DNA of 64,000 nt from Caenorhabditis remanei. Taxonomy: Eukaryota; Nematoda; Chromadorea; Rhabditida; Rhabditidae. Positions 11,956 to 41,040 of the stretch are shown piece after piece. The position numbers were made by a program, and so were the translations under genes. Under the pieces are notes generated by a model. That model saw only the letters and a list, made by a program, of their open reading frames with translations. It made no database searches and was not told where the DNA came from. Within the stretch, counting starts at the first letter, position 1; each line of letters starts with the position of its first letter. The DNA lies in the NCBI RefSeq assembly GCF_010183535.1, contig NC_071331.1, positions 19,902,001 to 19,966,000 of the forward strand. Reading direction: 5' to 3'.

Positions 11956-14900
11956 ATGAATTTCTTCATACTTCTCGTTGGTTTCGGGCTTGTTTCCGGC
12001 TTCCCCAGTGATGAAAATGGTTCATCAAAAAGAAGGAGAACTGAGAGTCCTAAAAACGTTGGAAAACCAACTTTTCCTAAACCTACAACCGTCACCACAA
12101 TATCTCCATCCTCGCCGCCATCAACTTCTTTTCACCAATCATCAGCTAATGACTGTTATTTTTCTAAAATTCGAACATCTAACTTGGAACAGTCGGAAAG
12201 AAGCCATAATGCCAAAGTTTCAACGGAATGTAATGGAAATACGATGAAGTAAGCTGGTTTTTTATAGTTATAATAGCTTTCTTGCTCAATTTCAGGTGGA
12301 ACTCTTTGGTAGGAACTTACAAAGGAAGAATGTATGGCGCTCACAATGAGATGGATTTGTTGGCTACGAGGGGAGCTGCTGAATACCATGACTTCGAAAA
12401 ACAAGATATTTTGGAAGAAGTTGGAAACAGAATGGTTTGTACTCAACATTGGAAAGAGTTGGTGACGGACTGGATCAATTCAAGAACTATAAAACATGTC
12501 CAGAAACTTCCTGTTTCTAACACGCAGGAGTTTAAATGTGGGATGCCTTCGCAAATCAGTCCCCATCCTTCACGAACCACACCTCCAGCTTTTCATTACT
12601 TCTTATTGCGTGATGAAGCGGAAAGACTTTTGAATGAGTACCATGTTCATGTACATGTTGGAACGCGTAAGATCGATTTGAAAAAATATCAATCATTCTA
12701 TATTTTCAGCACTTTGCCAAACGCACAAAGAGTTTGTTTCGGTGGTTCAATGTGTAAAATTGTTTGAAAACTCAGTAACAATCGATAAGCCTGTTTCTTC
12801 TCGTTTACAATCGGCTGTCGCTAAATACAAAGATGAATCTGAATTTTGTCCTCAAGACGCCCCAATGGAGGTTGACGAACCAGAAGAAAGCGACGAAGAT
12901 TTACCAGCTTTCCTAACGACAGATGATAGCAATGTTTGTCATTCGAAGTTTGTTGAGTGGACCCGGACTCTGGGAATCAGAAGAGTTGAACACCGTAAGC
13001 AGTTCTCATCGTTAAGTCGGAGATCCAAAAGAAGAAAGGCTCTGGCAATGAATCAAATTCTCCGTTCAGCTTTAGAATTACTGGCTCCTGGTAGTTCCAA
13101 AGAATTGCGCGATTTGATGCAGGATATAGATGGTAATCAATGGACGACAATCAGATCAAAGTTGTTTGATGATCTAATGGATAGTATTGTATTGGAGCAT
13201 TCAAAACTTTCAACTCGTAAAGAAAGAAACAGCTTGCTTTCTGTGGTTACGTCTATCTTACCGTATTCTACTATTTTGAAATATTTCCCTGGCATTTCAC
13301 GATATCAATACACCAGTTCGCGAAAGTATAGCCTCTTGTTGAACAGAAGCCCATATGTATCCACAAAACGGCAGAAATATGTAAAAGAAAATGTGGTTGC
13401 GTTTGTTGATTTCATTACTAGGTAGGTGAATTTTTTTTAAACTTTCAAACAACACGTTCGTTATAGCCCTTTGGTGCGTTCGGATCTGCCCTACGGTCGT
13501 CGAGTTCTAAAAAAATCAGATGGGACCAAATTGGAAATTTCTGATTCTCTACGCAATGTCAGAGCAATTGAGGTGAGCAATGATGATGTTTGTGTACTAA
13601 AACCTATTTTAGATTGTGGAAATGTACATAAAAATGAAGACTGAAAACAAAGAGGAAGAACAATTGATGAGTAGAAGTACTCTTTTTAAAATATTGGACA
13701 AATGTAAGGCGACCAACAGAGAGGCATTAGAATGCGTCGATTATTTTATCAGTGACGCTTTAGAGGTAAGATGCTAAAATTATGTCTTTCAAAATTGAGT
13801 TTTTCAGTCTTTTGAAACACTCACACAAGTGCTGAACAAAATGAAAACAGCCGGCTACATTGATGGTAGAACCGAAAAAGACTACGAAAGGAGGCTTGGT
13901 GAATCAAAGTTATACTTGCAAACAGATTTCAAACTTCACGTGAAATTTGAGTCCAAAGTAAGAAAAATCATTCTTCAAAAGTCACCACGTTGTTTCCAGA
14001 TATCAGATCACTGTATAAAGTTTGGGCTGTCTGATCCAAAAGATAAACAGCACTCAGCGAGTTGTATGGATGGAAAGTCTTCACACGATCATGAGAAGAA
14101 TATGTGTGAGAGGTGTCAAGCAATTCGTGACGTTTTTGACGACTTAAGAAGCATCATAAAAAAGTTGCTCGACTCTGCGAGTAAAAAGAAGCTTCACAAA
14201 ACTTCTGAAGATAATGTCAAATCGGAAGCGGAATTAGCGGTGTTTTTGAACGACGTCGAGATAGCCGAAAAAAATGTTCAAGAGTTGAAAAAACATTTGG
14301 TGAGTGTGTTAGTTCTGAAACGAAATGAAAATTTATATTCAGCTTCGGAATAAACACTCAAACCACGTTCGTCAGGAATTAATAGATACACTCCAAGTTG
14401 GTGACGCAATTCTGACTCTTGATTGGGCTCAAAAAGTGATACCAAAACAAGCAATCGAATCTCAAACGGATTATTTCGGCAAAAGTGGAATCAGTGTGCA
14501 CGTTACAAACGTTCTTACCATTGATAAAGAAGGAAATCTGCAACAACATAACTTTGTTCACATCACAAATCATGAAGTCCAAGTAAGTTACTTTATGCTA
14601 TGATCTTAATTTCCACGATTTTATAGGATTCTATCACAGTGATTCTAATTCTTGAACACATTTTGAAAGAACTCAAACACACCAGCATTTCGCGTGTTCA
14701 CTTGAGAAGTGACAACGCAGGTAAAATCTTGACTTTAAAAAGTTAAAGAAACATCGTTTTTACAGGTTTCTATCATTCGAATAAAACAATATCATCGTTA
14801 CCGGGACTCTCGAAAAGCAGCAAGGTGGATATTGTTAGCTATACATTCAGCGAGCCCCAAGGAGGAAAAGGTAATTCATTTTGTCGTAACGAAAAATCGG

Positions 14901-16236
14901 AGAAAAAAATTCAGGTTCTGCCGACAGAGCTGCCAATGAGTTTAAGACAAAACTAAAGACATGGTTGGCTTCTGGAAAGAATGTGGAGACTCCGGAACAA
15001 CTGTTTGTTGCTCTCATCGAAGGCCGCGTTCCAAAAGCAATGTCGTCGTATCTGTGCACAGTTGATTACTCCACCATAGTAGAAGGATCGTCAGATATCG
15101 AGGGAATTCAAAACATGTATGATTTCCGGTTTGACTCGAAACATTCCAAGATGACGGCGAGAAAGTTTGCATTCATTGGAAGTGGAAATGAATATGATAC
15201 AACCAAATTCGATGCTGCAAAAGGAACACTGACTATTGAAAAATCTGGAGGCTACGAAAAGTCGGATTTGAACACATTTTGGAAATCTTCGAAGTGTTCA
15301 AAAAAGTGTTCGTTGGAGGACATTGAAGATCAAGAAAGGAGTTCTGAAGTTGTTCCTTTCGAAGAAAGTGATGTCGATGTAGAGGAACCTATTCCAAAGC
15401 CCATGGAAACGGCGGTATTTGAATGTCCGGAAGAAGGCTGCACAGCAACTTTCACAAAATATGCCAACTTAGAACGTCATGTTTCTTTGGGAAAACACAG
15501 TTTTGTGCCTGAACGGGAAACTCTTCTTGATTTCGCAATGGAACGTTATGCAGAAAACATCGAGGGTATACGAGAAAGTTCTGTTCCGAACTCCTTGAAG
15601 GACATGCTGACAGAGCTTCCTCCAGGAACAGTCCTCTTTTCGAACCCAATGGGCTGGGCTATGCCAAGCAAGAAGCACAACAAGAGATACGACAAGAATG
15701 TTGTTCAGTTTGTCATGAAGAAGTTTGAAGAAGCAGCGACAAAACAACTGAAAGTTTATCCAAAACTAATTGCAAAAGAGATCCGCGAGCAAAGAAAAGA
15801 TGGGAAATTGCAATTTTTACCTGACACGTGGTTGAATTACAAGCAAGTTTCAAACCTATATCACACCTTCGGACGAAAATCAAAAGAAATTGAGGCTAAA
15901 AAAGCTCTTGCGAAAGAAAATAAGGCACACCCCAAAGGCGACAAAACAGTCACATCATTGCCGACTACTGTTCGAACCCCTCAGAATAGGGCTACTGCTG
16001 CTTCTGCTGATTCAAAAAAACAAACGTCCAGAAGCTCATCGAGTGGAAAAGAACAGAAAGATCGATCGAAGCGAGAGTTCAATGATGAACTGATTGAGTT
16101 GGTATTAGAGGAACTCAATTCAAAGGAATTCGACGACTCAGAGGACATTTATGACGACAACAGTGAAGAAAACAAAGATTTTGAGAATCTCATTGCTGTA
16201 GTCGAGAAAGAGAAATTAGAAATTTTTGAAAATTAG
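11956..16236 (+). CDS. DDE transposase, ten exons, about 1295 aa
   Basis: Exons 11956-12248, 12296-12666, 12710-13421, 13467-13572, 13613-13765, 13808-14299, 14343-14582, 14627-14720, 14766-14870 and 14915-16236 join in phase with consensus splice sites and sum to 1296 codons without a stop. A 42-nt in-frame stretch at 13958-13999 also looks like an intron and may be removed. A likely catalytic triad is D736 (LTLDWAQ), D818 (RSDNAG) and E850 (SEPQGGKG), spacing D-81-D-31-E. The N-terminal half has VCTQH and LCQTH pairs that may bind zinc. A C2H2 finger lies at about 1024-1050 (FxCPxxGC...H...GKH). The C-terminus is lysine- and acid-rich and disordered. The start is uncertain: an upstream in-frame extension from 11722 is open. 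The intact frame suggests recent activity. Confidence 0.8.
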
Positions 16237-16276
16237 AACATTTGATTATTATCCATTACCGTGTTTCACTTTTTTC

Positions 16277-16930
16277 TGCAGAATAAAAAAAAAATTTTGG
16301 GAAAAATTTTTTTTCAGTTTTTTTTATAAAATCACATTTTTCAGTAGGAAATAGTGAAGTTAGGTAACAAGTGTCAATACAAAAAATTATCAGTAAAACA
16401 CGGGCTATTCATTTCTGCAAAAAAAAATCAAAAAATTTCAATTTTGAAAAAATCGATTATAAACTTTGCCACTTTTCGACCGTCCGGACAAGATGATATG
16501 AGTTGAGCTTTTTTTTTAAATGAAGGTCACAAAGCGTACTTTGTTTTAAAAAAATATCCTCACAGGTGTTATTTCAAAAATGGCACTTTTTTTTTCTCTA
16601 AACCCAAAAAATGTCGAAAAAGTGAAGTTTTTTCGTTATAACTTGGCCAATTTTGTTTCATATTTTCTGAAACTTTGTGAAAAGTTTATTTTATGCGTCT
16701 ATATTATGTGGTAAAAATTTCAGCTTCCTACGACAAAATTGAAAAATTTCATTTTTGCACCTTTGAGCACCTACCGTACTACAGTAACCCGGAGCTGTGA
16801 CCCAATATTATGCATATGGGTTACCCAAGCCCCATAGTACATGTTTATATAAAAATCAAAGCTATGTCTTTTCTACAGGCTCTAGGCCCCTATGTACTAT
16901 GGCCATGCTCGAGTCTTACAGAGAACGCGT
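16277..16930 (-). repeat. Right terminal inverted repeat of the DDE transposon
   Basis: This is the complement of 10945-11570, with about 30 extra bp near the tip (around 16,850-16,905) not present in the left arm. It begins about 40 bp downstream of the transposase stop codon. Confidence 0.85.
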
Positions 16931-19421: not shown

Positions 19422-21029
19422 ACATGGAATGTATTTTGACTGGCCCCCCTAACCTATCACTTTTATTTGCTTAATCGATAGCTTTCAGAGAGAAAACACC
19501 AACCTGAAAGGGTTTTCTTGTGACGTTACCTGGTTTTTGAAAAATTGAGATTTTTCAAAAAATGTATTTTTTCTCAAAATTTTTTTTCTTCAATTTTTTT
19601 GTCTACAATGCAGCATGGAGAGCAAATAGAAAATACATGAGCTAGATAGATAATGTCTTTGGCTACAAAAAACAGAAAATTAAATAAAAAAATTAATTTT
19701 GAAAATTTTGGAATTTTTCAAAAAACTGAAGCCCTCCAAAAAAAATTTTTTCATTCATCCACGAATGTTTGATTTTTTAATTTGAAAAAATTCAGCAACT
19801 CATTTAAAATATTTTTTCAAAAAAAAAATTAGGGGGTTTCCGAATTTTGAAGCGAGATATAAGGATTTGAAAAATTTCGTTTTTCAAAAAAGTGCAATGA
19901 ATGGGGTGTGCAGAATGTGGAACCCAATTCACAACAAAGATGAAACTTTTGAATGGAACCGAATGAACACAGTTTATGTATAAGTTATAAGTCTCTGATT
20001 CTGAAATTTGAACTTATTTCGTCAAATCTACGAGAAAGGGCACATGTTCAAAACTAGCAAATTTTCCCGACGAGATGAAAATTCAGATGCTCATAACTAC
20101 TTAAAAACTCCAGTAAAACGGTTCTAGTATATAAAAACGTGCTGAATACGTCTAGTTTATCCAAATACATCATTTTGAGCAATTTTGAAATTTTTTATTT
20201 TTTTCGATTTTCAGATTTATTTTCATGTGGTCCCCCCTTATGAAAATCGAAAAAAATAAAAAATTTCAAAATTGCTCAAAATGATGTATTTGGATAAACT
20301 AGACGTATTCAGCACGTTTTTATATACTAGAACCGTTTTACTGGAGTTTTTAAGCAGTTATGAGCATCTGAATTTTCATCTCGTCGGGAAAATTTGCTAG
20401 TTTTGAACATGTGCCCTTTCTCGTAGATTTGACGAAATAAGTTCAAATTTCAGAATCAGAGACTTATAACTTATACATAAACTGTGTTCATTCGGTTCCA
20501 TTCAAAAGTTTCATCTTTGTTGTGAATTGGGTTCCACATTCTGCACACCCCATTCATTGCACTTTTTTGAAAAACGAAATTTTTCAAATCCTTATATCTC
20601 GCTTCAAAATTCGGAAACCCCCTAATTTTTTTTTGAAAAAATATTTTAAATGAGTTGCTGAATTTTTTCAAATTAAAAAATCAAACATTCGTGGATGAAT
20701 GAAAAATTTTTTTTTGGAGGGCTTCAGTTTTTTGAAAAATTCCAAAATTTTCAAAATTAATTTTTTTATTTAATTTTCTGTTTTTTGTAGCCAAAGACAT
20801 TATCTATCTAGCTCATGTATTTTCTATTTGCTCTCCATGCTGCATTGTAGACAAAAAAATTGAAGAAAAAATTTTTTGAGAAAAAATACATTTTTTGAAA
20901 AATCTCAATTTTTCAAAAACCAGGTAACGTCACAAGAAAACCCTTTCAGGTTGGTGTTTTCTCTCTGAAAGCTATCGATTAAGCAGATAAAGGGAAAGGT
21001 TAGGGGGCCAGTCAAAATACATTCCATGT
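19422..21029. repeat. Fold-back element, 1.6 kb near-perfect inverted repeat
   Basis: The arms 19422-20214 and about 20242-21029 are reverse complements over roughly 790 bp around a loop of about 27 bp containing GTGGTCCCCCC. The tips are ACATGGAATGTATTTTGACT and its complement. TGA occurs at both borders and may be a 3-bp target duplication. There is no protein-coding frame of note. The near identity of the arms (mostly isolated differences) suggests recent origin or gene conversion. Confidence 0.8.
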
Positions 21030-21520: not shown

Positions 21521-21526
21521 TGCTGA
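21521..21526. repeat. Polinton target-site duplication, left copy
   Basis: TGCTGA directly precedes the element and is repeated perfectly at 41035-41040. Confidence 0.9.
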
Positions 21527-21715
21527 AGAGAACTGTGGGGGGGAGTTTAGCACCATTTTTTCTTGTACCTCCCAGCACTCTCTCACTCTCTCACAGCTTC
21601 CCCTCGTCTTCCCCTTGGCTTTCCCTCTTCCCCGACCGTAACGCTGCGTCTCCTCCTCTTAAATACTATTTCACAATGTCTGCGTCTCTCGCCTGATGAT
21701 ATTGTCCCTCGCTAC
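21527..21715 (+). repeat. Polinton left TIR, 189 bp
   Basis: Reverse complement of 40846-41034 with few mismatches; similarity stops at CCTCGCTAC. It contains G-rich and CTCTCTCAC-rich tracts. Confidence 0.9.
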
Positions 21716-22378
21716 TATCATTTTTCTGCACATCTTTAGCGTATCCTTACGGTACCCAATAAATTTTTTACAAACACCCATGATATTGTACTTTTTAAAA
21801 TCGGGAAAACCAGGAGATTACCAAAATTTTAATTTGAAGTACGACATTCCAAATATTGAAAATATAAATATATACATTCTAAGTGTTACAAAGGGTAGTT
21901 TTTTACTAGTGATTCACCATCGGTGGGGAAAAATGCTACCATTCTACGAAAAAAGTTACCATTCTACATTTTTTGACAACTTACTGAATAGTTGTCTTTT
22001 TGCTGTATATTGATTTCTTGTGTCGAAAACTTTATATGGTTCTACTGATTTTTCTGAAATTCTTGTATTTTACTATTATTATACCAAAGTCTACTATTCC
22101 AACCACAAGATGAACATTCTTTCCCGGATGCAAAGTGTAAATGTTCTTCCGAAAACATATACTAAAATTGGAACAATGCAGAGAAGATTATGCTCAACGA
22201 CGTTATCAACTTTGTCAGCAATGTTGATTTTGCAAGAATGTAAGTTATAGTTTTTTTTTTTTTAAATTTCTATCGGTCTAATATTGTATTTTACAGCCGA
22301 GATGATTTAAGAAGAAAATTGAGCAGAAGTTTGTGAGTTTCGGAAAATAATTGACGAGAGCAAGCAAGCAGTGGTAAC
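21716..22378. other. Polinton left subterminal region, no firm gene
   Basis: Plus-strand ORFs of 76-105 aa occur (21696-22013, 22020-22250). The second could splice (GTAAGT near 22,241; TTTACAG near 22,296) into a few codons then a stop, giving a peptide of under 50 aa from the ATG at 22,110. No family resemblance; treated as unproven. Confidence 0.35.
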
Positions 22379-22570
22379 ATGGATTTTGGCGCCTGGTTCA
22401 GAGTAAGTTTTCATTAAATTAAATTAAACAAATATGAAAAATATTTTTTTCAGCATGAGAAGATGATTCGAGCATGGAATGGTATATTCGGCATGAGGGA
22501 ATCGATGTTGGTGGCCACTGGACAAGACGGATGGAAAACTCGTTTATTTAATTTTTTTTTAATAATTTAA
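22379..22570 (+). CDS. Candidate 46-aa Polinton protein
   Basis: ATG at 22,379 gives an 8-codon exon ending at a GTAAGT donor (22,402/22,403), a 51-nt intron with a TTTTTTTCAG acceptor, and a second exon 22454-22570 ending in TAA. The phases join and give 46 aa, including a W-N-G-I-F-G helix-like stretch and a hydrophobic C-terminus. The gene would converge with the protease gene on the opposite strand. I recognise no family; the argument rests on clean splice signals and phase only. Confidence 0.35.
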
Positions 22571-22710
22571 CTTTTTAAAAAAAAATATTTCAAACAAATA
22601 ATAAATACGAATTTATTATTCTTGTGAAAAACGCGTTTTGTATTCAACAAGTATTTATTTGTAAAGATGAATAATCACAACAAAAATTACATTACAACAC
22701 AGGAAAAAGG

Positions 22711-23487
22711 TCAGCCTGATGCAACATGAAGATTAGAATTTCCATCCTTATAAATTTTGATAGTTCCAACGAGGGTCATATTTTTGAAAGTGTCTTCAAA
22801 CAGTGGAAGCAACTGGGGATGAGCAAGTTGTTGTGGCCTCATTGGAGCATTTTCTCCGGTAGAAAAAGTAGTTGGTGTTTTGATTGGAGTGTTGTTGAGG
22901 GCACCGTCGAATCGCTGAGGATCCGTTGTAGTTGGGGAGAGCGGAACACCGTCAACCTGTTCGAACATTACTGAAACAATGAAATGATAGTTCTGCTCAC
23001 CTTTCAGGGGTTTATATACCCGGCTCTCGCACTGTTTCAGATGGGTTTTCACCCACTTTACTACAAATTCATCATTTCTTGTTAAATTTTTTGAAAATGG
23101 TGAACGTATCGTTTTATTAGATACTTTTCTAGTTTTTTGTATCAAAAAATAGATACAGTAGTAACCACACACATTGGATAAAATTCCTTGAATCGGTCCT
23201 CTGATAACTTTTTTCCATTTTGGACAATTCTTTGCAAAAAAGTCTAAAAACTCTTGTTGGGGGTCGAAACCACTACTATCAAAGAAATAACCATAATTCC
23301 GATCATCTATCCACAAAGCAACCCAATGATCTCCAGATTCGCTACTTGGTGCTGTATTCCAAATAAAGGAACATGGCCCCTTATCAATTATAGGGGTTTT
23401 ATCACAAGGGTATACCCCTTCAAATTTTTCTCTGGTAACACGACAAGTACTAAGAAAACAATCAAGTTGAATAGTTGACAAAGACAT
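22711..23487 (-). CDS. PRO: Adenain-like cysteine protease (Polinton PRO)
   Basis: 258 aa. The N-terminal 150 residues follow the adenovirus protease fold: H54 in GDHWVALWID, acidic D70 in FFDSSG, the oxyanion Q100 in IQG, and the nucleophile C107 in NVCGYYC, all in the order and spacing of the family. The product would mature capsid precursors during virion assembly. The C-terminal 100 residues are Pro/Thr-rich and specific to this element. It is the last gene of the minus-strand structural block. A GTGAGC...TTTCAG stretch near 22,971-23,002 resembles an intron but is short and in frame, so I keep it in the coding region. Confidence 0.9.
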   Translation of the reverse strand: MSLSTIQLDCFLSTCRVTREKFEGVYPCDKTPIIDKGPCSFIWNTAPSSESGDHWVALWIDDRNYGYFFDSSGFDPQQEFLDFFAKNCPKWKKVIRGPIQGILSNVCGYYCIYFLIQKTRKVSNKTIRSPFSKNLTRNDEFVVKWVKTHLKQCESRVYKPLKGEQNYHFIVSVMFEQVDGVPLSPTTTDPQRFDGALNNTPIKTPTTFSTGENAPMRPQQLAHPQLLPLFEDTFKNMTLVGTIKIYKDGNSNLHVASG

Positions 23488-23552
23488 TTATGCGAGTATA
23501 AAAATAAATAAAACAAGCAGGCTAATATTAAAAAGACAAATATATAATAAAA

Positions 23553-24085
23553 TCAAGAAATATGTATACGGATCCAGATGGCTTCAGTCGGGTACATTCT
23601 TCCACCATTGTCGCGAACGAGTGGAGAATGGCTGTAGTTGAGTGTTATCCCATATTTCTTCTCGAAATAGCTCAAAACGGTAACAAACTGATGTTTTGGC
23701 CCCTTGCCTGGTCGTGTCACCAGCTTCACAAAACTGTGATTGCGTGGTGTTGAGTCCCTAAAAAATATTTTTATAAATGTATAAATACTACACTTGTCAC
23801 TTACAAACTCAATTCACACGTCAAGTCGACCGGAAGGCCATTACATCCATTCCAAACCAAAGGAACATCCATTTGACGAAGATGACGATTCATCTCTCGG
23901 ATTTCAGAAGCGGAAAGATGATTATGTTTTCCAAACTTGAGTACCAAATACGTTGCAAGGTTAATATCCACACTCTGTAAAAGAAAATAACATTAAATTG
24001 TCTAATTAAAATATAATCTTACCCCCGAGGTCGGTGGAATATAATCGTCTGGGAAAACAATTGGCTTGGTGGTACCAGGAAGCAT
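23553..24085 (-). CDS. PAZ-like (Argonaute linker/PAZ) protein without PIWI, 145 aa
   Basis: Three exons (24085-24023, 23974-23805, 23757-23553) join in phase with consensus nematode splice sites and give 145 aa with no stop. The second half matches the PAZ pattern of Argonautes: a FVKL.TRP strand, then FVTVLSYFEKKYGITLNYSHSP (hydrophobic core plus K-x-Y-x-I-x-L-x-Y-P-like segment) and a following M-Y-P-T-E-A-I that corresponds to the YLPxEL of PAZ. The preceding S-V-D-I-N-L-A-T-Y and helix resemble the linker leading into PAZ. The frame ends where PAZ ends; no MID or PIWI follows. PAZ binds 3' ends of small RNAs. The gene lies 32 bp from the capsid gene stop, same strand, between capsid and protease. 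Capture from a host Argonaute and an anti-RNAi role are inference. The call rests on recalled family pattern, not on a search. Confidence 0.55.
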
Positions 24086-24117
24086 GTCGAACACAAAAAT
24101 GAATAAGACTGAGCAAC

Positions 24118-25368
24118 TCAGGGAAGTTGATTTATGTTGACATTTCGGAATCTATCAATTTCGAACATTCCATCAAATTGTGACAAAACCAACACATTTA
24201 GACCGCCTGTCGGTGTTTTCTTAGCAAAACGCAGAAAAAGCTGTGTACTGCCACTTTTCACAAGTTCCCATGCATTTGATGAATCAATTGCCGACAAATT
24301 GAAAACAAAGAATGTGAAGCCTTCTCGATACATTTTGTAGGAAATCCTAGGATTGCAACCATCTGACACACCACCCAGTTCTTCATAAAAACGTGCAAAA
24401 GCTTCAGCATAGTTTTTATTTTCAAAATCGCAATGAATTGGTTGTGCTGGATACATTGTTCCACCGGCATCAATTTGGATATCAGAAAGATTGAAATGAT
24501 CAAATTTCAGTGAATCTTTAGTAACAACAGTTTCAGGATCCAATAGACCGACAATAATTCGTCTTGGTATAATATCGTGATACAGTGTACTAAATGGTAG
24601 TTCAAGTCTACCTTCTGGAACTGAAATGAGTTTTACTTTTGAGGCTGTGAAGGGATATTGTGCAGGGGTAGTACGAAGACGATTTTCCAAGGCTATTGTA
24701 GCAGACGAAACAACATCAATCGCACGCATATGTAGTTTCAGATCGGTAATTTCCAATTCAGCTTTCGTGTCCTTTGTACTCTGCATACAAAAAGTATCAC
24801 TGCTTCGGTAAAGGGTCAGTTGTATGTTGATGTGTGGAACCAGTAGACGTTCAGTTTGAAAAGGTTCTAATAGCAATGGGGCGCAGAGATCAAGATGATT
24901 CTTATCAGTCAAAGCACGTTGATCGTCATCCTCATGATCCTGCCAACCAGCTGCAGTCAGATATCCATCTTTCGTATCACTGTTCTCTCCCAACAGGGTC
25001 AGGATGTAACTTTTAAAGTTATAATAGGACGAGTCGTAAACCTGTACATTGTTGAATGACAGTTTAATCTGATTGAAAAATGTGGCTCCACTGAAATTTG
25101 TGTGAATAATCTTCACAGGCTCTCCAGTTCCATTGGTCTCAACATTCTTGAGGCGTAGTTTGAATGAAACATAGGTTCGGTTGAGTTGAAAGAAATGAGC
25201 ACTATCAAACACATTGAAGGTATAAGGGCCTTTCGAATCTACAGCATTTGAGGGGGTATACGTCATCCATCTTCCTTTGCTAAATGCCACCTGGCTAGGT
25301 GGAGTATCAAAAAGACAAATGTTGGCTGGTGCACTTGGTGCACTCTTCGTGTTCATCAATTTTGCCAT
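24118..25368 (-). CDS. MCP: Major capsid protein, double jelly-roll (Polinton MCP)
   Basis: 416 aa with no membrane segments, rich in beta-strand-like alternation. It matches the family often labelled F54H12.2-like in nematodes, now taken as the Polinton major capsid protein: an early FxVxxSxxxxxLxxTYVxFxLRL block, an IHxNFSGATxFNQIKLSFN block, then GWQDH and L-E-P-F-x-x-E-R-L-L-V-P, and a second half with Y-P-F and R-L-E-L-P-F motifs. It would form the hexon-like trimer of the capsid. The start at 25,368 overlaps the upstream gene by 13 bp. Confidence 0.8.
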   Translation of the reverse strand: MAKLMNTKSAPSAPANICLFDTPPSQVAFSKGRWMTYTPSNAVDSKGPYTFNVFDSAHFFQLNRTYVSFKLRLKNVETNGTGEPVKIIHTNFSGATFFNQIKLSFNNVQVYDSSYYNFKSYILTLLGENSDTKDGYLTAAGWQDHEDDDQRALTDKNHLDLCAPLLLEPFQTERLLVPHINIQLTLYRSSDTFCMQSTKDTKAELEITDLKLHMRAIDVVSSATIALENRLRTTPAQYPFTASKVKLISVPEGRLELPFSTLYHDIIPRRIIVGLLDPETVVTKDSLKFDHFNLSDIQIDAGGTMYPAQPIHCDFENKNYAEAFARFYEELGGVSDGCNPRISYKMYREGFTFFVFNLSAIDSSNAWELVKSGSTQLFLRFAKKTPTGGLNVLVLSQFDGMFEIDRFRNVNINQLP

Positions 25369-25886
25369 TTTCCAAAAATATCACTCTTCCGTGATGTAGA
25401 TTTAGGCAGGGATCGTTTTTTGTTAGACCTTTTACGACTCACTTTCTTTGAATTTGTTCTCGGTTTCTTGACTTTTTTGACACGCCTTCTAACACGTCTC
25501 TTGACCGGTTTTCCTTTTCGTTTTGGAGCTTTCCTGCGTCTTCGACGACCACCAGATTGATCGAGTTTACCGATAGCACGGTTTACAAGTGAATTATAGG
25601 AATTGGTAGCGTTTTTTGATAGGGACTGTTTGAAAGAGTCACCAGCCACTACGTCGTTTGCAACACGAACTGAGGAATCCATAACTTCACGGCCTAGCGA
25701 AACACCCATACGTTTTAGCAGGGGAACAGCGGAAATGAAGAGTTTTCCGAGTAATTGCGAGAAAGGACCGTTTCCCCGCTGATAGAGACTTCCGGCACGA
25801 AATCCACCAGAACCTGCTTGATTCGGTGTGTTTTCAAAGAAATGGGTCCAATCAATAGAATTGTCAGGATCAAAATAAATATACAT
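25356..25886 (-). CDS. Basic virion protein with adenovirus pVI/core-like features
   Basis: 176 aa. The N-terminal half has G-F-R-A-G-S-L-Y-Q-R-G-N-G followed by an amphipathic helix F-x-x-L-L-G-K-L-F, a pattern shared by small Polinton proteins beside the capsid gene. The C-terminal 75 residues are almost entirely Arg/Lys (RRRRR, KKVKK, KKRS), suited to binding DNA inside a particle. It overlaps the capsid start by 13 bp in another frame. Role inferred from position and composition. Confidence 0.65.
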   Translation of the reverse strand: MYIYFDPDNSIDWTHFFENTPNQAGSGGFRAGSLYQRGNGPFSQLLGKLFISAVPLLKRMGVSLGREVMDSSVRVANDVVAGDSFKQSLSKNATNSYNSLVNRAIGKLDQSGGRRRRRKAPKRKGKPVKRRVRRRVKKVKKPRTNSKKVSRKRSNKKRSLPKSTSRKSDIFGKWQN

Positions 25887-25931
25887 ATTATGATACGTGA
25901 TTTATAAGTGTGGAAAGTGTTGATTTGATTA

Positions 25932-26705
25932 TCAACCATCAAGTGATGAAACAATTGGACGGAAGTGAAGAACGACGACAATCTTTCCAGAGTTAAATGG
26001 AATGAACTGATCACGATCGTTCTTTATTTGTATGCCAATCTGATCCACATAACTTGACCGAACTGGTACATAAAGCGGGTTTGTGAAGCTTTGGTCAACA
26101 TTTCCCATAATACCTGTAGAAATGGTGATAACCTTCAAAAGTGGCACTTTCATATGACTTGTAATCTGTGGTTCAACTAAACCGTCAGAATAAATATACA
26201 TGAGGTCTGACCCGGAATACACTGAATATTGACCAATGACTGGGAAAGTTGTCAAAACCTTATTTAATCCAAGAAAGTAGCTCAAGCGATCGGAAAGTTC
26301 AACTTTGGTGACTTTTGGGTGTTTCGGTACAGTTATCCGTTTGAATATCGAATCGTAGGAAAAAAGATCAATTCTGACTTTTGTGTCATTTGTAGCACGG
26401 CTTACAATGTTTGTCAGAGTATAGTTCAAAATAGTGATGAGCTCCAGTGGAGAATCGAATGAGCAATGTGGTATTGAACATTTGAACTCTTGTTTATCGT
26501 ACCAAACAGAAAACTCATTTTCGTACTTTCCATCGCTTTCGAGGGTTTTTGCTATCAAATCATGAGAAGTAGGGTAAATGATTGAACACAAGGCAACTTC
26601 ATATGGCTTATTGAAGTTCAAAGGAGATGCCAAATGTGTCTTAAAGTTGGAGATTGTAGAAGTAGCTTGGGCATTTGAGACGAGAGTAATGTAGAAATCA
26701 CTCAT
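25932..26705 (-). CDS. mCP: Minor capsid (penton-type) protein
   Basis: 257 aa. The opening MSDFYITLVSN...FKTHLASPLNF...YEVALCSIIYP follows the conserved start of Polinton minor capsid proteins (FYVTLPSN ... L-A-x-P-I ... W-E-V-G-L-x-E-I-x-Y-P). The rest is beta-rich with G-x-x-x-Y-V-P-V near the end. It probably occupies capsid vertices. It overlaps the upstream membrane-protein gene by 8 bp. Confidence 0.75.
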   Translation of the reverse strand: MSDFYITLVSNAQATSTISNFKTHLASPLNFNKPYEVALCSIIYPTSHDLIAKTLESDGKYENEFSVWYDKQEFKCSIPHCSFDSPLELITILNYTLTNIVSRATNDTKVRIDLFSYDSIFKRITVPKHPKVTKVELSDRLSYFLGLNKVLTTFPVIGQYSVYSGSDLMYIYSDGLVEPQITSHMKVPLLKVITISTGIMGNVDQSFTNPLYVPVRSSYVDQIGIQIKNDRDQFIPFNSGKIVVVLHFRPIVSSLDG

Positions 26706-26910
26706 TTTCCTTTATTTTTGGGTTTGGTAACAAGTATCCGATACAAGAACCAAGAATGACAAGCCACTGTTGATGTTGAGGGTAGTCGAGAGTACAAATT
26801 TTATATAAAGCAACAAAACTGACAATATAAATTATCAAAACTTGGGACAAGAATACAAGCAATGATTTGGAGCAATGAATATTACCACAAGACCACGTTG
26901 GACTATCCAT
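26698..26910 (-). CDS. Small membrane protein of the Polinton structural block
   Basis: 70 aa with a strong membrane helix (about residues 17-41, LLVFLSQVLIIYIVSFVALY) and a second shorter hydrophobic stretch ending I-G-Y-L-L-P-N-P-K. The latter ending is typical of a short conserved ORF next to the Polinton minor capsid gene. Role unknown; membrane association is predicted from composition. Confidence 0.6.
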   Translation of the reverse strand: MDSPTWSCGNIHCSKSLLVFLSQVLIIYIVSFVALYKICTLDYPQHQQWLVILGSCIGYLLPNPKIKENE

Positions 26911-26991
26911 CGAAAATACACGAAATGAATAAATGAATCACAAAAAACAATATAAAAGACTACATGTCAAAATTATCATACAAATATTCGA

Positions 26992-27985
26992 CTATTTGCC
27001 TTTTTCGTCATTTTGAAACAAAATCATCTCTTCTTCATACCAAATACCATCAAGCTCGTTTTCAGACGCATCAGCCAGAATATAAACAGGAATGTCATAT
27101 TCAATGATTTTGACCACTTTGAACACTTCTTCAGACCATTTAGCACGAGTACCTTTAGCGAATGGGGAATTTTCCATCAAAATACGAACAGTGTCACCCA
27201 ATTTAAATTTCGAATGTCGAATACGTGAAGATCCATATAACCGATTCCAGATTTTTTGTGCATTCTTCGATGTCACCTTCTCAGGCGAAGTCCCGATAGA
27301 ATCCATAAAAGTGCTATTCAATCCATCCACTATTTCATCCAAAACAGTTATCCATGCATAACTGCCTGTAGCTGTAAACCACTTTTCAAGTTTGTTCTTA
27401 ATCCTCATGATCGCATTTTCGGCATAACATGCTTTGACATTTGTATTTTTTGGGTTCATATGAGAAATTCCGCATGACTTGACAAGATGTTGGAATGTTT
27501 TCCCCATAAACTCGGTACCTGAAAAATCATAAATATTTGTGATTTGAAAAAGACAAAATACCTTTATCAGTGTATAAACGTGAAGGTATTCTCCATGATG
27601 TACGCAAAATGTCACGATAAGCATTAGAGACGGTAGCACATTCCTTGTTTTTCAGTGGTCTTGCAAACAGGAAACGGGAAAAAACATCAACTACAACCAG
27701 AATGTAACAAAATCCCTTGTTCTTCTTTTTGAGAGCTGGTAACATTGCAAGATCGGCCATATGATGACTATCGGGACCTGAGGCAACCCATGGGTTATGT
27801 TGAATTTTCTTGACTGGGTGAAAATGTCTCGTATAAACTGTATTTGAATGGAGATAGGATACGACATCTTTCCTTGTTATGTTCTTGTTGATTTTTCGTG
27901 CTTGAGCATGTAAATGAGAAACACCACGGAAACCAGACTTTGGATTGTGATACAACTTTTCAAGTATTTCTCTTTTTTCCTGCAT
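26992..27985 (-). CDS. INT: Retroviral-type DDE integrase (Polinton INT)
   Basis: Two exons, 27985-27562 and 27518-26992, join in phase (donor GTATTT, acceptor TTTTTCAG) to 316 aa. The catalytic triad is D78 (HMADLA), D140 (LYTDKGTEF) and E176 (ACYAEN), a D,D-35-E core. The N-terminal part keeps an H-x-H and basic helices but lacks a complete HHCC finger. The C-terminus has the chromodomain/SH3-like KxGDxVRI...F.KG....W.EEVFKV pattern of Polinton integrases. It joins the element ends to a target with 6-bp duplications, as seen at the borders. The 5' end overlaps the next gene by 26 bp. Confidence 0.9.
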
Positions 27986-28637
27986 TCTGATTACCGCTAC
28001 TCCAACGTCTAACTTTAAAGTTTCTGCTACTGGATCGTTGTGGGTATTTACGTTTTGGATTCAAAATGTACTTTTCCGGAAAATTGGTTTCGTTCAAGTA
28101 TTGTGAAATGGCAAAAAGGCCTGGAGTTGGTTTAGTAATTGGTTTTTCGTTGCTAAAGTCTTCGAGAACCTTTTTAATAGTGATGTTAGGTATTACAATA
28201 TTCCTCAAATAGAAAGTTCCAGTAGTCTTGTCAATTTTGAAAACTTGAGGGTTATTCTTGAAATGGTTGAAAAGTTTTTCTTTTGAAGACTTGATTTTAT
28301 CAGCAGTTTTAGAAGGTGATACAATAGGTTGTGGTGGTGGACTCTGTACCACATCATGTACACTATCAGCATCATCAAATACGTCATCGTTGTCAGGATT
28401 CACCGTTTCGCTTGTCGTGGGGGCATTTTCATCAAGTTTTGGTATTTTTACAGAATCCTCTTGTTTTGAGGCGTTTACACGTTTTCTCACCAAATCTGAT
28501 AATTCCTTTTGCAAATGAGCTAGTTTGGTGTCATTTTCCATTGGTGCATCAAGAATATTATCGATAGGGTTTTTTCGGTTGGAGATTAAATCTTCATGTT
28601 CTTCGATTGAAAGTAGCACGTATTTACCGTAAGACAT
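27960..28637 (-). CDS. Conserved Polinton protein of unknown function
   Basis: 225 aa from the ATG at 28,637 (an in-frame TTG at 28,643 is unneeded). It opens with the KYVLLSIEEHEDL pattern found in a family encoded next to integrase in many Polintons. An acidic disordered middle (D/E, P-rich, residues about 80-115) and a compact C-terminal half with IVIPNITIKKVLEDF and a basic tail follow. It overlaps integrase by 26 bp and the upstream gene by 14 bp. Function unknown. Confidence 0.55.
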   Translation of the reverse strand: MSYGKYVLLSIEEHEDLISNRKNPIDNILDAPMENDTKLAHLQKELSDLVRKRVNASKQEDSVKIPKLDENAPTTSETVNPDNDDVFDDADSVHDVVQSPPPQPIVSPSKTADKIKSSKEKLFNHFKNNPQVFKIDKTTGTFYLRNIVIPNITIKKVLEDFSNEKPITKPTPGLFAISQYLNETNFPEKYILNPKRKYPQRSSSRNFKVRRWSSGNQNAGKKRNT

Positions 28638-28983
28638 TTTCAAGAATAGTAGAAGCAGCGGATATCAGCACAGGTAAAAGTATGGCAACTGGTGAACCTC
28701 CTGTTTGAACTAGAAACTGTCTAGTTTCCTCAATATTCCGTAGAGTTGCCAAATGTCTCAAGTTTTCAGACTCTGGTTTGAGTTTTTGCACGAAGACGCG
28801 TGGAACTTTGACAGATCCGTTCAAAATGTTGAAAATGAGCTCCACGAGACAAACAATCATATTATCGGAAAACTCACCAATTTGAGTAATTCTTTCATTT
28901 TCGTCCAAAGTTTTTGAAAGAGTAAGAATTTTGTGAAAAGTATCCAAATCCCAAGTAGGGCACTCATTTTGGGATGAAGACAT
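28624..28983 (-). CDS. Conserved small Polinton protein
   Basis: 119 aa from the ATG at 28,983 (the frame is open further upstream inside the ATPase gene). The C-terminus LRHLATLRNIEETRQFLVQTGGSP..ILLPVL matches a short conserved Polinton ORF ending in V-Q-x-G-G and a hydrophobic helix. It overlaps the ATPase 3' end by 20 bp and the next gene by 14 bp. Probably a virion component; this is inferred from location. Confidence 0.6.
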   Translation of the reverse strand: MSSSQNECPTWDLDTFHKILTLSKTLDENERITQIGEFSDNMIVCLVELIFNILNGSVKVPRVFVQKLKPESENLRHLATLRNIEETRQFLVQTGGSPVAILLPVLISAASTILENVLR

Positions 28984-29593
28984 GTGTAGTTTTGCCAGGG
29001 AGAAGATTATCACGATAACGAATTTCGTCGGGGCAGTTTTTGTGAAGATCAATCAGTAAATAAGTATATGGTTCGCTGGTAGCGTCGTTATAAATGGCCA
29101 AAAATGTGTTGCAAGCACCTGGCATAAGTTGTGACCCCAAACATCTCACACTTGACTTGTCCGCATTGTTTTTGAACAAAATGATATAACTTGCTTGCAA
29201 ACGTAGATTTCTAATCACTTTTGAATAGAAAATGGTATGAAGTAGAAATACAACGGTCATATCGTAATGATGAGCCAAAACAGACACAAGTCGCTCCATT
29301 CCCGAGTTTTGATCGATTTTTGTCATTAAATCGTCAATAACCACCAATACCTGATCTTTCTTGTATTTCTTCAGTTCCTCCAGATTTGGTAATCCTTCAC
29401 GTAACATGACATCTTGTCGATTTTTCAACGAATCAGGGACACTTTCAAAGGTGTCGTAGTACCAAAAGCAGATTTTACTATCCACATCAAAAATAATGTT
29501 CCTTTGGTCGACCAGTTTCCGTGCCAAAGTACTTTTCCCTTGACCACTGGGGCCGACAATCAGAATAGTCGACTGCCAGGATAGCTTAACCAT
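28964..29593 (-). CDS. ATP: DNA-packaging ATPase (Polinton ATP, FtsK/HerA type)
   Basis: 209 aa. Walker A G14-PSGQGKST, Walker B LVVIDD (D87, D88) and a downstream sensor-like H-T-I-F-Y-S motif match the A32-like ATPases that pump DNA into capsids of poxviruses, virophages and Polintons. It is the first gene of the minus-strand structural block; the 500-bp upstream region contains a 106-bp direct repeat. Confidence 0.9.
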   Translation of the reverse strand: MVKLSWQSTILIVGPSGQGKSTLARKLVDQRNIIFDVDSKICFWYYDTFESVPDSLKNRQDVMLREGLPNLEELKKYKKDQVLVVIDDLMTKIDQNSGMERLVSVLAHHYDMTVVFLLHTIFYSKVIRNLRLQASYIILFKNNADKSSVRCLGSQLMPGACNTFLAIYNDATSEPYTYLLIDLHKNCPDEIRYRDNLLPGKTTHVFIPK

Positions 29594-30091
29594 GATGAAT
29601 GAATATTTTTAGGAATAAATTTTATTTATTTTCATTCCATCCGACGCGAAAAAATTTCTATTATTTTTTTGATTACTGAAGAATTTCACGAATTTTCCAT
29701 TTTGTCGTACAATTTCCGATATTAACACATTTCCGACAATATTTCACTAAAATATGTGATGGCCGTCCCGTAAATCGACACGACCTAACTCTTCTGTCTC
29801 CTAGTCCCCGGCCACGCGCAAGTACGTAGTTCACCACGGGCATTGCGGACTTTTCCCCTCTCTCAACTATTTCATCATCTCCCTTCTCTCTGTCTGTTTG
29901 CTTCCCCCCAGACGACCCCGCGCAAGTACGTAGTTCACCACGGGCATTGCGGACTTTTCCCCTCTTTCAACTATTTCATCATCACCTCCGCTTCACCCGT
30001 CTGTCTGTGTGCTCGTTGGCTTCCCTCTCTGAGAAAAAAGTCCTATTCAACAACAAATTTATTCAACTCTAATAATAATAATAACAAATAA
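29594..30091. promoter_or_regulatory. Upstream region of the structural block with 106-bp direct repeat
   Basis: A CGCGCAAGTACGTAGTTCAC block at 29,816 recurs 106 bp later at 29,922, each continuing through GGGCATTGCGGACTTTTCCC and TCAACTATTTCATCATC. The duplicated unit is GC-rich against AT-rich surroundings. It lies upstream of the ATPase gene and downstream of the RING gene stop (both minus), so promoter or enhancer function for the structural genes is likely but unproven. Confidence 0.5.
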
Positions 30092-30902
30092 TTAGAGTTG
30101 GAGGTTCTCCGGCGGTACTGGGACGTAAGCCGGCATCATCGCAAACACCGTTGGATATCCTTGTGCTGGTCTTGTGCTTCTTGTCCTACACGTGCTGCAG
30201 TGTAAATAAGATCCCCAGTTCATATGCACGGAAATGCGTTCAATACACTGGTTGCAGAAGGTGTGACCACATGCTGAAAAAAAAAAAGTTTTCAATACAT
30301 TATCTGAATTTTTTTAAAGATTCTTACTGAGGACTTTTGGTATGACTTGGCCATCATACGCTCTTATACAGAGCAGGCAGCACCGACTTTCCTCACCGCG
30401 GACATCTCGGTCGTTCCTGAAGAATGCGATTTCGGCGTTTCGCCTTCTCATCTCTTCTTGAAGGTGATCTCTTTCTCCTCGAAAGCGGTCTCTTTCTTCT
30501 TGGAGACCATTCTTCTCCTGACGCAGGATTGCGACTCTTCTCTCGAGGGCCAACATTTTGTTGTGGTCCGATTGCGCCTTTGTTGAAGTGACGCAATCAC
30601 ACAGGACATGTACCACCTGAAAAAAAAATCATTATATAAGTTTTACCAAGATTAAAAAAAAAAAAATGGAAAAAATCGCGTTTTTAGAGTTTTAAACTTG
30701 AAAAATGGCTTAAAATTGAGGAGAAAAATCTCAAAAATCGCGTTTTTTGAGTAAAATGGAAAAAAAAAATTAACACGACTATTAAAAGCCTAACCTGCAC
30801 TTCCTCCGTTTTGACGATCGCACCGGATGTTGATGATGATGATGCTGATGCAGTTTTCTTGGACGTTGGTGGGGGCTTCCTCTTGGGGAGTTTACCCGAC
30901 AT
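30092..30902 (-). CDS. Coiled-coil RING-finger protein (Polinton cargo)
   Basis: Three exons, 30902-30795, 30616-30328 and 30273-30092, join in phase to 192 aa. A basic, Ser-rich N-terminus (1-36) is followed by a coiled coil (about 55-105, with repeated E-R-D-x-x-R/Q heptads). Then comes a C3HC4 RING: CLLC, then TCGHTFCNQC split by an intron, then CSTC, with a Pro-rich tail. RING domains of this form recruit E2 enzymes, so an E3 ubiquitin ligase role is likely. The gene sits between polymerase and structural genes in the same orientation. It is not part of the core Polinton set, so host capture is plausible. Confidence 0.8.
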
Positions 30903-31017
30903 GGCTGAAATTTAAGATTCATTATACAGATGCAACTTTTTTTTGAAACAACAAAAGTATATTATCGTTCTAGTTTGATAGAAAAAAGATGGAAGGAGAA
31001 AGCTGAATAGTATTCTA

Positions 31018-31326
31018 CTAGAAATGTTTTAAATGTACGAAAAAAAAAATTGAAAATTGATAATGGCGTTTCTGTGATTGAATGGGAAAAATGTTTCCGT
31101 CAACAAATTTTTTTTTGAGGGTGGAGCTTTGTGAATTTTCGAGTAATAGTGGGTTGGACTTTTCTTTGTCTCTACAGTGATGAGTTATCATCAAATACGG
31201 CGGCACCTGGACGTTTTTGAATTTTTGAAATTTTTCTTTGTCTTTATAGTGATGAGTTAGCGCCAAGTACAGGCACCCTTTTGGAATATTTTTTTGTTTA
31301 CTTACCAATGAATCAGGAATACCCAT
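31018..31326 (-). CDS. Uncertain 102-aa ORF with internal duplication
   Basis: The ATG at 31,326 follows a good splice acceptor (TTTTTTAG near 31,387), so trans-splicing is possible. The frame contains two similar segments (LYLALTHHYKDKEKF and PYLMITHHCRDKEKS), reflecting a 69-bp direct repeat around TTTCTTTGTCT and GTGATGAGTTA (31,158 and 31,227). A GTAAGT within the start region could instead be a donor. No family recognised. Confidence 0.3.
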   Translation of the reverse strand: MGIPDSLVSKQKNIPKGCLYLALTHHYKDKEKFQKFKNVQVPPYLMITHHCRDKEKSNPLLLENSQSSTLKKKFVDGNIFPIQSQKRHYQFSIFFFVHLKHF

Positions 31327-31512
31327 CTTTGCGAATTTTGAATTCGTTTGAACTGGAAAAATCTTCTGTTTTACGGTAGTTTCCCTAAAAAATAGGATAG
31401 AAATGGAAATTGTTAAAAAATATATCATGGAAAAATCACCATTTTGATTGCAGGAAAAAGAAATGAAAAAAGAAAAAAAAAAAAAAAATTTATTTACAAA
31501 ATATACAACAAA

Positions 31513-34500
31513 TTAACAATACCCGTAAGGCAAAGTAGACCCGTCCGACAGTACCCGGCGTTTGTTGAACGTGTATCGGAATTTCTTCGTAGTATTCTTT
31601 GAATACACATTGTGCGCTCTATCCCTGATCATCTTGTGTTGGGGAAACTCCTCAACCGTCCTGGTCGGATCCTTATTCAGCACCTCATCGACCAGTTGCT
31701 TCATCTTCGAGAAGGTGAATTTCTTGTCGACCTGGGAGTTCATTGTTACTCCTTTGGCTTTTCTTGAGACCTGAAAATGTAATTTTTATAAATATTTTAG
31801 CATATAAAATATTTACCTTCTCCTCTCCAGACTCGAGCGTCTCCGTGTAACAATAAGTCTTGGGCCCAGTTGTGACAAATTCCTTCATCTCTCCATCGAT
31901 CTCACTTGTCAATTGTCCGAGATATGGACCCATCTCGTCGACAAGGGGATTCTGGCAACCGTCAGGTACGGCAAATACAATAGAGTCAGTATCTGGAAAA
32001 GAAAATATAAAACTTTTGAAAAAAAAAGAGACTATATACCTGTATAAATAATGTTTTCATCTCCAACAGCCTCCATAAATTTATACAGCCTGAGTCGGGC
32101 GTATGACGTCGTCAGAGCGGCGATGTGGACAGCTCCCGTTCGGAGACTGGTCAACGTCTCGACTTGCTTTCTGTACTGCACAACAACAATGTTGTTGACA
32201 GGCCTCACATCAATAAGCTCAATCGATGTGTCGTGGACCAGTCTCCAGAACTTTGCTGCTTTCGTGATGATCTCCGTTTGTATGCGGTCCACTCGTTGAG
32301 CGAATTTACCCCACTGAAATTGTATTTTGTTTTTCAGAAAAAAAAAAAAATTGAAATACTTACGAGGGAATTCAGCAACAACTTCGCCACAGCTCTCATT
32401 CCTGGATTCTTGATAAATCTTGTCAGGTCGTCGAGGTTGATGTGCTCCTTTGCCGCATACTCATCACGATAAGCCTCCTTTTCTTCGTCTGTGACCACAT
32501 TTGACGGGAAACCCGAGCTATACTACAAAGAATAAACTAAATTTTTTGCTACTCTAGAATGAAAAACTCACAATCTTTTCGGCCATCATTTTGTTGATAT
32601 ACGAAGTGAAGAGTCCACCCTCGTTGTTTTCATCATTTTTCAACCAAAGGGGATATTCAACTCCCTGAAAAAAAGAAGACATTTTATATTTTAATAACAA
32701 CAAAAAAACTCACGTGATAAGCCTCAGTTATTGTATAACCAAGACTGAGTGCCTTGGTGAGCTCGAAGGTTGTGAAGGTTCCGTTGAAGGATCTTTCTTC
32801 ATCTGAATGTTGACATGGACCTTGAAGTTGATTTTTGGCACACTCTGGAATTTTGTACAATTTCGATAAATCTTTTGGTTTATAAAACTTACTATGACAC
32901 AGGTAAAACATTAGTCTGTTCGCGACTCTTCCAGGAAGCAATGGAAGTTTCAAATCACGTGGTGCGACTACTCTGCAGCTCAAGAATCCCATGAACGTCA
33001 GTTGATCGGGAGATGTCATGGGTGTGGGAATTCTTGATCTTTCCACATCTGCAGGGGGTCCGACTGGGTATGGTTCATATTTCATCACAGTTGGATATAA
33101 ACTGAAAAAGAAAGAATTTTTCTCGGAAAAATGTATAAAATTTACCTGACAACATCCAAGTAGTGCAATTTTTTACCATTGTTGTTGGTATACAGCCGGA
33201 AAACTTCGGTCCTACCACCAACCAGAGCCCGTTCACAATGTAGAAGGTCCTTGAAATGTACTATTTTTGTCTGAATAGTAAAAGAAAATACTCACCATAG
33301 GCTCATAGCCTTCAAAGAATTCGGCCATGTCGACATCATTTTTCAGCTGGTTTCGGACTTCACATTCCCAAACTACTTGCACTGGATACGATTGTTCAAG
33401 AATCCTCACTCGCTTGTCGTCCTTTTCACGAATCTTTTTCACGGTTTTGTCCCCAATCATGGATTCCTCCGAGTATTTGCAGCAATGACCATGCCAATAA
33501 CATCCCTAAAATATAGTTTTTAATGGTTTTTGAAAATTTTAAAGTTACCCGAAAGTCGATGATCTGGCCTTTAGGATATTCCTCGCACTTGTCAATGAAA
33601 CCATCTACGCGGTACTTCCCAATTTTCTTCTCGCCATATGTCGTCGACATCTGGACGTGGACTTTTTCATTGTGTTCGATCCATGCCATGTATTTTTGAC
33701 TCATGACCGAAGCATTGACGGAGACGGCTGGCTTGGCATCCAGGACGATCGGTGACCCGTTTTTCAAATGGCCTCTTCTGAAGACCTGCATGGCAGCAGA
33801 TGCGGCAGTGACCGACTCCTGTAAGAAATTTCAAGTTTAAACGATTAAAAAATGTTTTTCTTACCTCCAACAAGCATACATCGGTCATCTCCTCAAACGA
33901 CTTCTCAAAGTTTGTCATGGCCGATGCGAGAATGAAGACATCATTATAACAATAGTTTTCAATTTCTTCAACAAAATTGAACTTTTTGTCTGCTGCCCGC
34001 TCCGCTGCCAAAAACTCCTCCAATTCCTTTCGTTTGGCCGGTGCCTTGTTGTCGAGGTCGTAATACTTATCGTCAGGGATACCACCATCATAGTCAAAGT
34101 TTTCTGGCTGGATGAACTTGACGGGGAAATCGCTGAAAATGTCTATTACTATCTAAACTGAGAAATAAAATAAAAACATACCCCTTGACCGAGTCGATTT
34201 GGAAAGTTTTCGCCACATTGGCCAGACTCATATTCAAGTATCTGACAGAGTCGACGACTTTCACTCCCTTGTGTTTCAAAAACACCAATTTAGTACCATC
34301 CAGGGCAATTTTGGGTGCCTCCTTGTTGCTGGCTATCAGTTTTTCAAGAATAAACTGAGCATCGTATCTAAAAAGTTATTTTACATACAAAGTTTGAAAC
34401 GAAAATAATTACCCCGACGCATTGTGAGCCACAGCCACAGCTCCCCTGTGCTCTTCCGAGAATAGCCACTTTACGAGCTCCAAACCGACGTCCACAAAGC

Positions 34501-36555: not shown

Positions 36556-36591
36556 TGTTGTTTTTCAGCTCGAAACCTGAAAGAAAAAAAA
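36556..36591. promoter_or_regulatory. 36-bp divergent start region with facing splice acceptors
   Basis: The polymerase ATG (minus) and the small plus-strand ORF ATG are only 36 bp apart. Each is preceded by a TTTTTCAG or TTTCTTTCAG acceptor on its own strand inside this gap, the arrangement expected for SL trans-splicing. The promoters must then lie inside or beyond the opposite gene. Confidence 0.45.
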
Positions 36592-41034: not shown

Positions 41035-41040
41035 TGCTGA
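41035..41040. repeat. Polinton target-site duplication, right copy
   Basis: TGCTGA, identical to 21521-21526. Confidence 0.9.

Follow-up and report, generated by a model that had tools for sequence, protein, structure and literature searches.

A 64,000-nt stretch of the Caenorhabditis remanei genome (contig NC_071331.1, positions 19,902,001 to 19,966,000; hereafter the window) contains a 19.5-kb Polinton (Maverick) element at 21527-41034. Between its capsid gene and its protease gene we found a small minus-strand gene (23553-24085) whose product is almost certainly a stand-alone PAZ domain of the Argonaute type; in Argonaute, this domain grips the ends of small RNAs. The gene is under selection, has long been resident in Caenorhabditis Polintons, and is not a passenger. 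We propose, with a probability of roughly 0.4, that an Argonaute domain was taken by a Polinton and may have been kept, while the element radiated in Caenorhabditis, as a decoy for small-RNA 3' ends, a PAZ-only silencing suppressor encoded beside the capsid.

Gene structure and PAZ identity

Splice enumeration joined three minus-strand exons (24085-24023, 23974-23805 and 23757-23553) into a continuous frame of 145 amino acids (aa) and a stop codon. Both introns are GT-AG; the first (23975-24022) measures 48 nt and lies in phase 0, as taken from the sequence, and the second (23758-23804) measures 47 nt and lies in phase 2. Exon 1 (MLPGTTKPIVFPDDYIPPTSG) recurs in 30 full-length models from the 32 loci described below. 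According to the alignment and a structure model of the homolog P0001, exon 2 encodes the linker strand and the first half of the PAZ fold, including an invariant WNxCNG motif. Exon 3 encodes the PAZ alpha-beta module (SYFEKKY, NYSHSPLV) and the last strand with MYPTEA, followed by the stop codon. A preliminary description of this DNA had reported a three-exon, in-phase gene for a 145-aa product with TVLSYFEKKYGITLNY and MYPTEA, located in the structural block and lacking PIWI. Its coordinates proved exact, the product contains both segments, and the neighbouring genes encode a double-jelly-roll (DJR) capsid protein and an adenoviral-type protease. A PIWI domain was found neither in the same protein nor beside the gene, as the element contains none of the 67 Piwi matches that were listed genome-wide, and other Argonaute domains cannot fit in 145 aa.

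The Pfam PAZ profile (PF02170) matched the window protein in exon 3 (E = 1.1e-4) and seven other copies (E from 4.3e-6 to 9.1e-3). In profile-profile comparison, the C-terminal part of the family matched host Argonaute PAZ (hhalign P = 2.9e-9); as controls, the best shuffled profile scored 3-fold lower and the reversed profile 17-fold lower. A profile search of PDB sequences also supported the assignment. Above all, an AlphaFold2 model of P0001, built from a family-only alignment, matched PAZ over residues 17-145 and showed the PAZ fold, an OB-like barrel with an alpha-beta insert. The structural matches listed for this model were all Argonaute/Piwi entries. The reading of the product as a stand-alone PAZ domain preceded by a short piece of linker, which the preliminary description had offered for comparison with PAZ profiles and structures, is well supported by these results.

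Several points weigh against PAZ identity. Every Pfam PAZ score stayed under the curated cut-off (best 27.1 versus 28.8 bits). A PDB search with the window protein alone was not significant (AGO1 PAZ ranked third with E 1.2, after glutamine synthetase with E 0.45). The N-terminal part alone had no significant profile match (an out-of-register alignment of 11 columns scored 13.8), and its assignment to PAZ comes from the structure model of a homolog that is 48% identical to the window protein. An AlphaFold2 model of exon 3 alone was set aside (predicted local distance difference test, pLDDT, 62.9; no match at E <= 0.001); no PAZ was among the 50 of its 440 matches that were listed. These points would fit a Polinton protein whose 40-residue C-terminal motif is PAZ-like by chance, an alternative that is very improbable and close to refuted by the fit of the P0001 model to PAZ and by the scores of the shuffled and reversed profiles. 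We file the gene as a stand-alone PAZ-domain protein of Polintons, and not as an Argonaute nor, as yet, as a silencing suppressor.

Conservation, relatives and origin

The 130.47-Mb C. remanei assembly (186 contigs) was searched with the exons of the PAZ gene, which gave 114 matches at E <= 1 (36-99% identity, a few of them from other families). Forty loci were fetched around exon matches, and 32 were taken as copies of one lineage, lineage A, and modelled. The remaining loci were L036 (exon 3 only in the stretch), L056 and L057 (decayed fragments), L058 (contig end), L059-L061 (the H family) and L062 (lineage B1). From the 32 loci we obtained 30 full-length models of 143-145 aa with two introns at the same places; the model of L055 was shortened by a frameshift, L054 yielded none, and both were excluded from alignments. 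The choice of gene models was scored against the window protein, so that the intron agreement is partly by construction. Three annotated C. remanei proteins nevertheless agree with the models (P0003 with L028 and P0004 with L044 residue for residue, and P0001 with L048 plus one extra Met). Window and models together represent 20 distinct proteins, and several of the 32 loci lie on short, nearly identical contigs that may be uncollapsed haplotypes of one insertion.

The capsid gene adjoins the PAZ gene on the same strand in all 32 loci, and the protease gene lies next to it in 31 (query: the C-terminal 85 aa). A basic core-like gene accompanies them in 28; the four loci without it (L037, L049, L051, L052) likewise have interrupted or N-terminally incomplete capsid matches. 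Genome-wide, a PAZ gene lies within 3 kb of 42 of the 43 lineage-A capsid places entered, the exception being a short match on C27; a 44th row (C5:16756323), the second piece of the interrupted L037 capsid gene, was excluded from this count. Four of the 46 PAZ-gene places entered (C6:21082270, C151:125, C6:2597697 and C6:2577173) have no capsid place within 3 kb. The ratio of nonsynonymous to synonymous substitutions (dN/dS) was 0.03 when the window gene was compared with its nearest copy, and six further pairs gave 0.055-0.28 (14 sequences taken; the seven pairs had a usable dS between 0.02 and 1.2, and deeper pairs were saturated). PAZ-gene identity tracked capsid identity (Pearson 0.92, Spearman 0.51; 120 pairs from 16 copies). 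The low dN/dS and the occurrence of the gene near 42 of 43 capsid places show that it is more than a product of chance.

A single-sequence database search with the window protein returned three candidates, none at E <= 10; a family alignment was needed. This alignment retrieved eight proteins (three from C. remanei, two each from C. nigoni and C. brenneri, one from C. tropicalis), and a broader alignment retrieved P0001 and six more proteins, all from C. remanei (five at E <= 0.001). Databases already tag P0001 with PF02170, and UniRef names P0008 a "PAZ domain-containing protein". The C. nigoni model P0002 begins with about 100 aa that by eye resemble the end of the capsid protein. This fusion is probably a gene-model error over a short intergenic gap, and it indicates the same gene neighbourhood in that species. 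Among viral contigs, none of 53 pattern matches was confirmed as a relative, and the BFVD viral structures gave 75 matches at E <= 10 and none at E <= 0.001.

Relatives also occur outside lineage A. The capsid of a second Polinton lineage, B, is about 30% identical to that of lineage A. In all five of its places the B1 homolog (L062, L070, L071, P0009) is encoded on the strand opposite the capsid gene, and it has the same two intron phases. It can be aligned with lineage A across 115 columns (P = 3.4e-9) and also matches the host PAZ profile (P = 7.9e-6). Small PAZ-like genes of type B2 (L072) at C2:16.28 Mb and C4:1.94 Mb have lineage-B capsid genes nearby, at distances of 1.1 and 1.6 kb, and a third close copy (C3:5.34 Mb) has no capsid match nearby. 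Neither B1 nor B2 has a PAZ match in Pfam, which also counts against PAZ identity. The H family (L059-L061) has a weak Pfam PAZ match (E 0.003-0.02) and no capsid, protease or core-gene match within the fetched 5 kb; its member P0012 is another UniRef PAZ domain-containing protein, so named before this work. Like the window gene, B2 and H genes are stand-alone (about 90-110 aa) with a similar C-terminal module, but they are shorter and have no WNxCNG. A phase-2 intron at the place of intron 2 is common to lineages A, B1 and B2 and the H family.

Three side observations concern these relatives. The H family (L059 2191-2562, L060, L061 and others) has eight strong genomic places, six of them on C3, and is followed downstream by a putatively F-box-like open reading frame (ORF). 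Further B2-related small PAZ-like matches lie on C4 (5.06-5.86 Mb and 20.6-21.06 Mb), away from capsid matches, and are either decayed Polintons or a host expansion. The C. remanei protein P0010 (a BZIP domain-containing protein in UniRef) joins a bZIP-like stretch to a lineage-B1 PAZ-like sequence and is either a fusion or an annotation artefact.

As to the origin of the gene, one host Argonaute exon (C2:14651504) also starts after a phase-2 intron near the place of intron 2, whereas host Argonautes L001 to L006 read through there. Since the host introns are mixed, the phase-2 intron says little about the donor. Against the family profile, the best host Argonautes (L003-L006 type) scored 23.3 and 22.6 bits, versus 17.7 for the AGO1-like L001. 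These YP-type Argonautes (e.g. FYPMEL) share with the Polinton gene the YP that replaces LP in the last strand, but they are host Argonaute genes and form no supported sister group to lineage A in our tree of 26 short rows, where support was good for 6 of 23 inner branches. Capture from a host Argonaute, as the preliminary description had it, is likely to have happened in an ancestral Polinton; the phylogeny gives no supported donor, and the tree does not name the Argonaute gene concerned.

Binding pocket and candidate functions

We take F292, Y309, F310, K313 and Y314 to be the 3'-end pocket of human AGO1, in both numbering and role. Their equivalents are invariant in the 14 of 14 lineage-A sequences taken, and the loop preceding YFxxKY carries 3-8 Lys/Arg and lacks acidic residues in all 20 distinct lineage-A proteins. 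This aromatic/Lys pocket and basic loop favour nucleic-acid binding, and we consider the odds to be slightly on the side of a predicted binding of nucleic-acid 3' ends.

A number of points count against such binding or a role in silencing. The family alignment has no Arg/Tyr at the positions of AGO1 R275, Y277 and R278, the backbone-contacting residues; the invariant WNxCNG appears to occupy the AGO1 H269 region, where these Arg/Tyr contacts would be expected. The basic loop may substitute for the absent R275 and R278. The basic pI of 8.7-9.8 is not distinctive, with 10 of 12 host PAZ sequences at pI >= 8.8. In lineage B1, Y108 is replaced by Val, Ile or Ala and K112 by Asp, so that the equivalents of AGO1 Y309 and K313 are missing, and the proteins are neutral to acidic. 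Because the B1 pocket has changed, 3'-end binding cannot be general, and the function is at least not uniform. Judged from the alignments, the changed B1 pocket and the absent Arg/Tyr contacts argue for caution. Lastly, the position between capsid and protease suggests late expression or a virion role as the default guess.

Since the pocket is kept and the MID/PIWI lobe is missing, we favour the small-RNA decoy. The PAZ protein would be made in the productive phase of the element and would bind host small RNAs by their 3' ends in its aromatic/Lys pocket, with help from the basic loop. Without a MID/PIWI lobe, it could only sequester guides or compete. By competing with host Argonautes, either for guides or for the partners of Argonaute, it would then blunt silencing of the element. 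The preliminary description had likewise suggested that the product may serve as a small-RNA sponge or a dominant-negative suppressor. We regard this chain of steps as a whole, and silencing suppression by the PAZ protein in particular, as tentative.

The best-surviving alternative is a virion or assembly function, in which a PAZ fold captured once was reused as a minor capsid, cement or packaging protein, with RNA binding incidental or lost. We consider it rather unlikely. It would account for the same-strand adjacency to the capsid gene (32 of 32 loci; 42 of 43 capsid places when counted within 3 kb), for the correlation of PAZ-gene with capsid identity (0.92 and 0.51, as above), for the changed pocket in B1, and for the presence of WNxCNG, not found in the host PAZ alignment, among the most constrained residues. 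Adjacency by itself, on the other hand, is no proof of a virion role; the opposite orientation of the B1 homolog uncouples it from the capsid transcript in that lineage, and the lineage-A pocket residues are invariant.

Two further alternatives are both improbable. In the first, the protein would act in protein-primed replication by capping free 3' ends, either on displaced single strands or on element transcripts. We know of no precedent, and the gene lies in the structural block and not beside the polymerase gene; the same pocket and basic loop would serve this role as well, and the element has a protein-primed polymerase B. PMC6361761 mentions that the PAZ domain of AGO2 binds DNA. In the second, a PAZ surface would bind an Argonaute partner (e.g. 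a Dicer-type nuclease or a loading factor) with no RNA binding required. Lineages A and B1 do align over 115 columns while differing in pocket residues, but no interaction surface was identified in this analysis, and such competition leaves the invariant lineage-A pocket unexplained.

The surrounding element and comparison with known systems

Terminal inverted repeats starting with AG and a 6-bp target duplication are hallmarks of Polintons/Mavericks, and both are found here. The left repeat (21527-21715, plus strand), which begins with AGAGAACTG, and the right repeat (40846-41034, minus strand) are about 190 nt long and 97% complementary, with their ends taken from the sequence. The duplication TGCTGA was read by eye in both flanks (21521-21526, plus strand; second copy 41035-41040). 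The element also holds the Polinton gene set of protein-primed DNA polymerase B (pPolB), rve integrase, ATPase, adenoviral-type protease and DJR capsid, and is a Polinton. Of these, the capsid and one polymerase piece score above Pfam cut-offs, and protease and rve below.

The following genes all lie on the minus strand. Downstream of the PAZ gene is the 258-aa adenovirus-type cysteine protease (22711-23487; PF00770, E = 3e-4, 20.9 bits versus a cut-off of 21.3), and upstream the 416-aa DJR major capsid protein (24118-25368; PF21738, E = 1.9e-7). The structural block continues with the basic core-like protein (25356-25901) and a 259-aa protein that is a putative minor capsid candidate (25932-26711), both ORFs without a Pfam match. 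A retroviral-type integrase core piece follows (27527-28060; PF00665, E = 3.6e-6, 27.6 bits versus 32.6), overlapped by an ORF without a Pfam match (26992-27651). A P-loop ATPase (28964-29608; best E = 3.1e-5 among P-loop families) has a putative packaging role. Intron-split pieces of protein-primed type DNA polymerase B (32684-34375) match PF03175 three times (E 1.3e-6, 1.6e-4 and 7.4e-4). This gene probably extends in both directions; the adjoining ORFs (31513 to 36564) have no Pfam match.

Within the terminal repeats, PIF1-like/SF1 helicase pieces on the plus strand (38992-40211; PF05970 E 7.3e-8, PF13538 E 4.8e-8) may be either an element gene or a nested insertion. Just outside the element, a nested pair of inverted repeats (386 and 410 nt, 97-98%; 19462-20991), with inner arms 27 nt apart, forms a long foldback. 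Between further inverted repeats at 10988-16857, 471 and 123 nt long and 98-99% complementary, lie about 5 kb that carry plus-strand ORFs of 247, 184 and 448 aa. These three have no Pfam match at E <= 0.01; the whole looks like a separate DNA transposon next to the Polinton.

A gene of the Polinton structural block that was unknown is now given a fold and a family, and the element appears to use a borrowed part of the host silencing machinery. RNAi was discovered in Caenorhabditis. If the small-RNA decoy is true, the gene would directly record, at the molecular level, how a virus-like transposon and RNA silencing have been engaged in an arms race, and would do so as a testable single-domain protein. 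Even without a suppressor role, a stand-alone PAZ that stays with capsid genes while the element radiates means that an Argonaute part was reused by a mobile element. The PAZ domain itself and the database PAZ tags on P0001, P0008 and P0012 were already known. In literature on Polintons/Mavericks combined with nematodes, Argonaute or PAZ, we found no statement of a PAZ gene, although earlier Polinton papers may mention one; PMC11071308 does not mention Argonaute, PAZ or RNAi in its text.

Compared with Argonaute PAZ domains (PF02170; human AGO1/AGO2, Hiwi1), the Polinton gene differs in being transposon-encoded, in having no PIWI, and in carrying WNxCNG instead of the Arg/Tyr contacts. Viral proteins that suppress RNA silencing, among them p19 and B2, sequester small RNAs with folds unrelated to PAZ. 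The outcome proposed for the Polinton protein would be the same, small-RNA sequestration, but this protein would be a piece of Argonaute itself. Caenorhabditis Mavericks carry captured host-type genes (wosp, krma), which PMC10680173 describes as cargo, whereas the PAZ gene accompanies the capsid gene at 42 of the 43 lineage-A capsid places entered.
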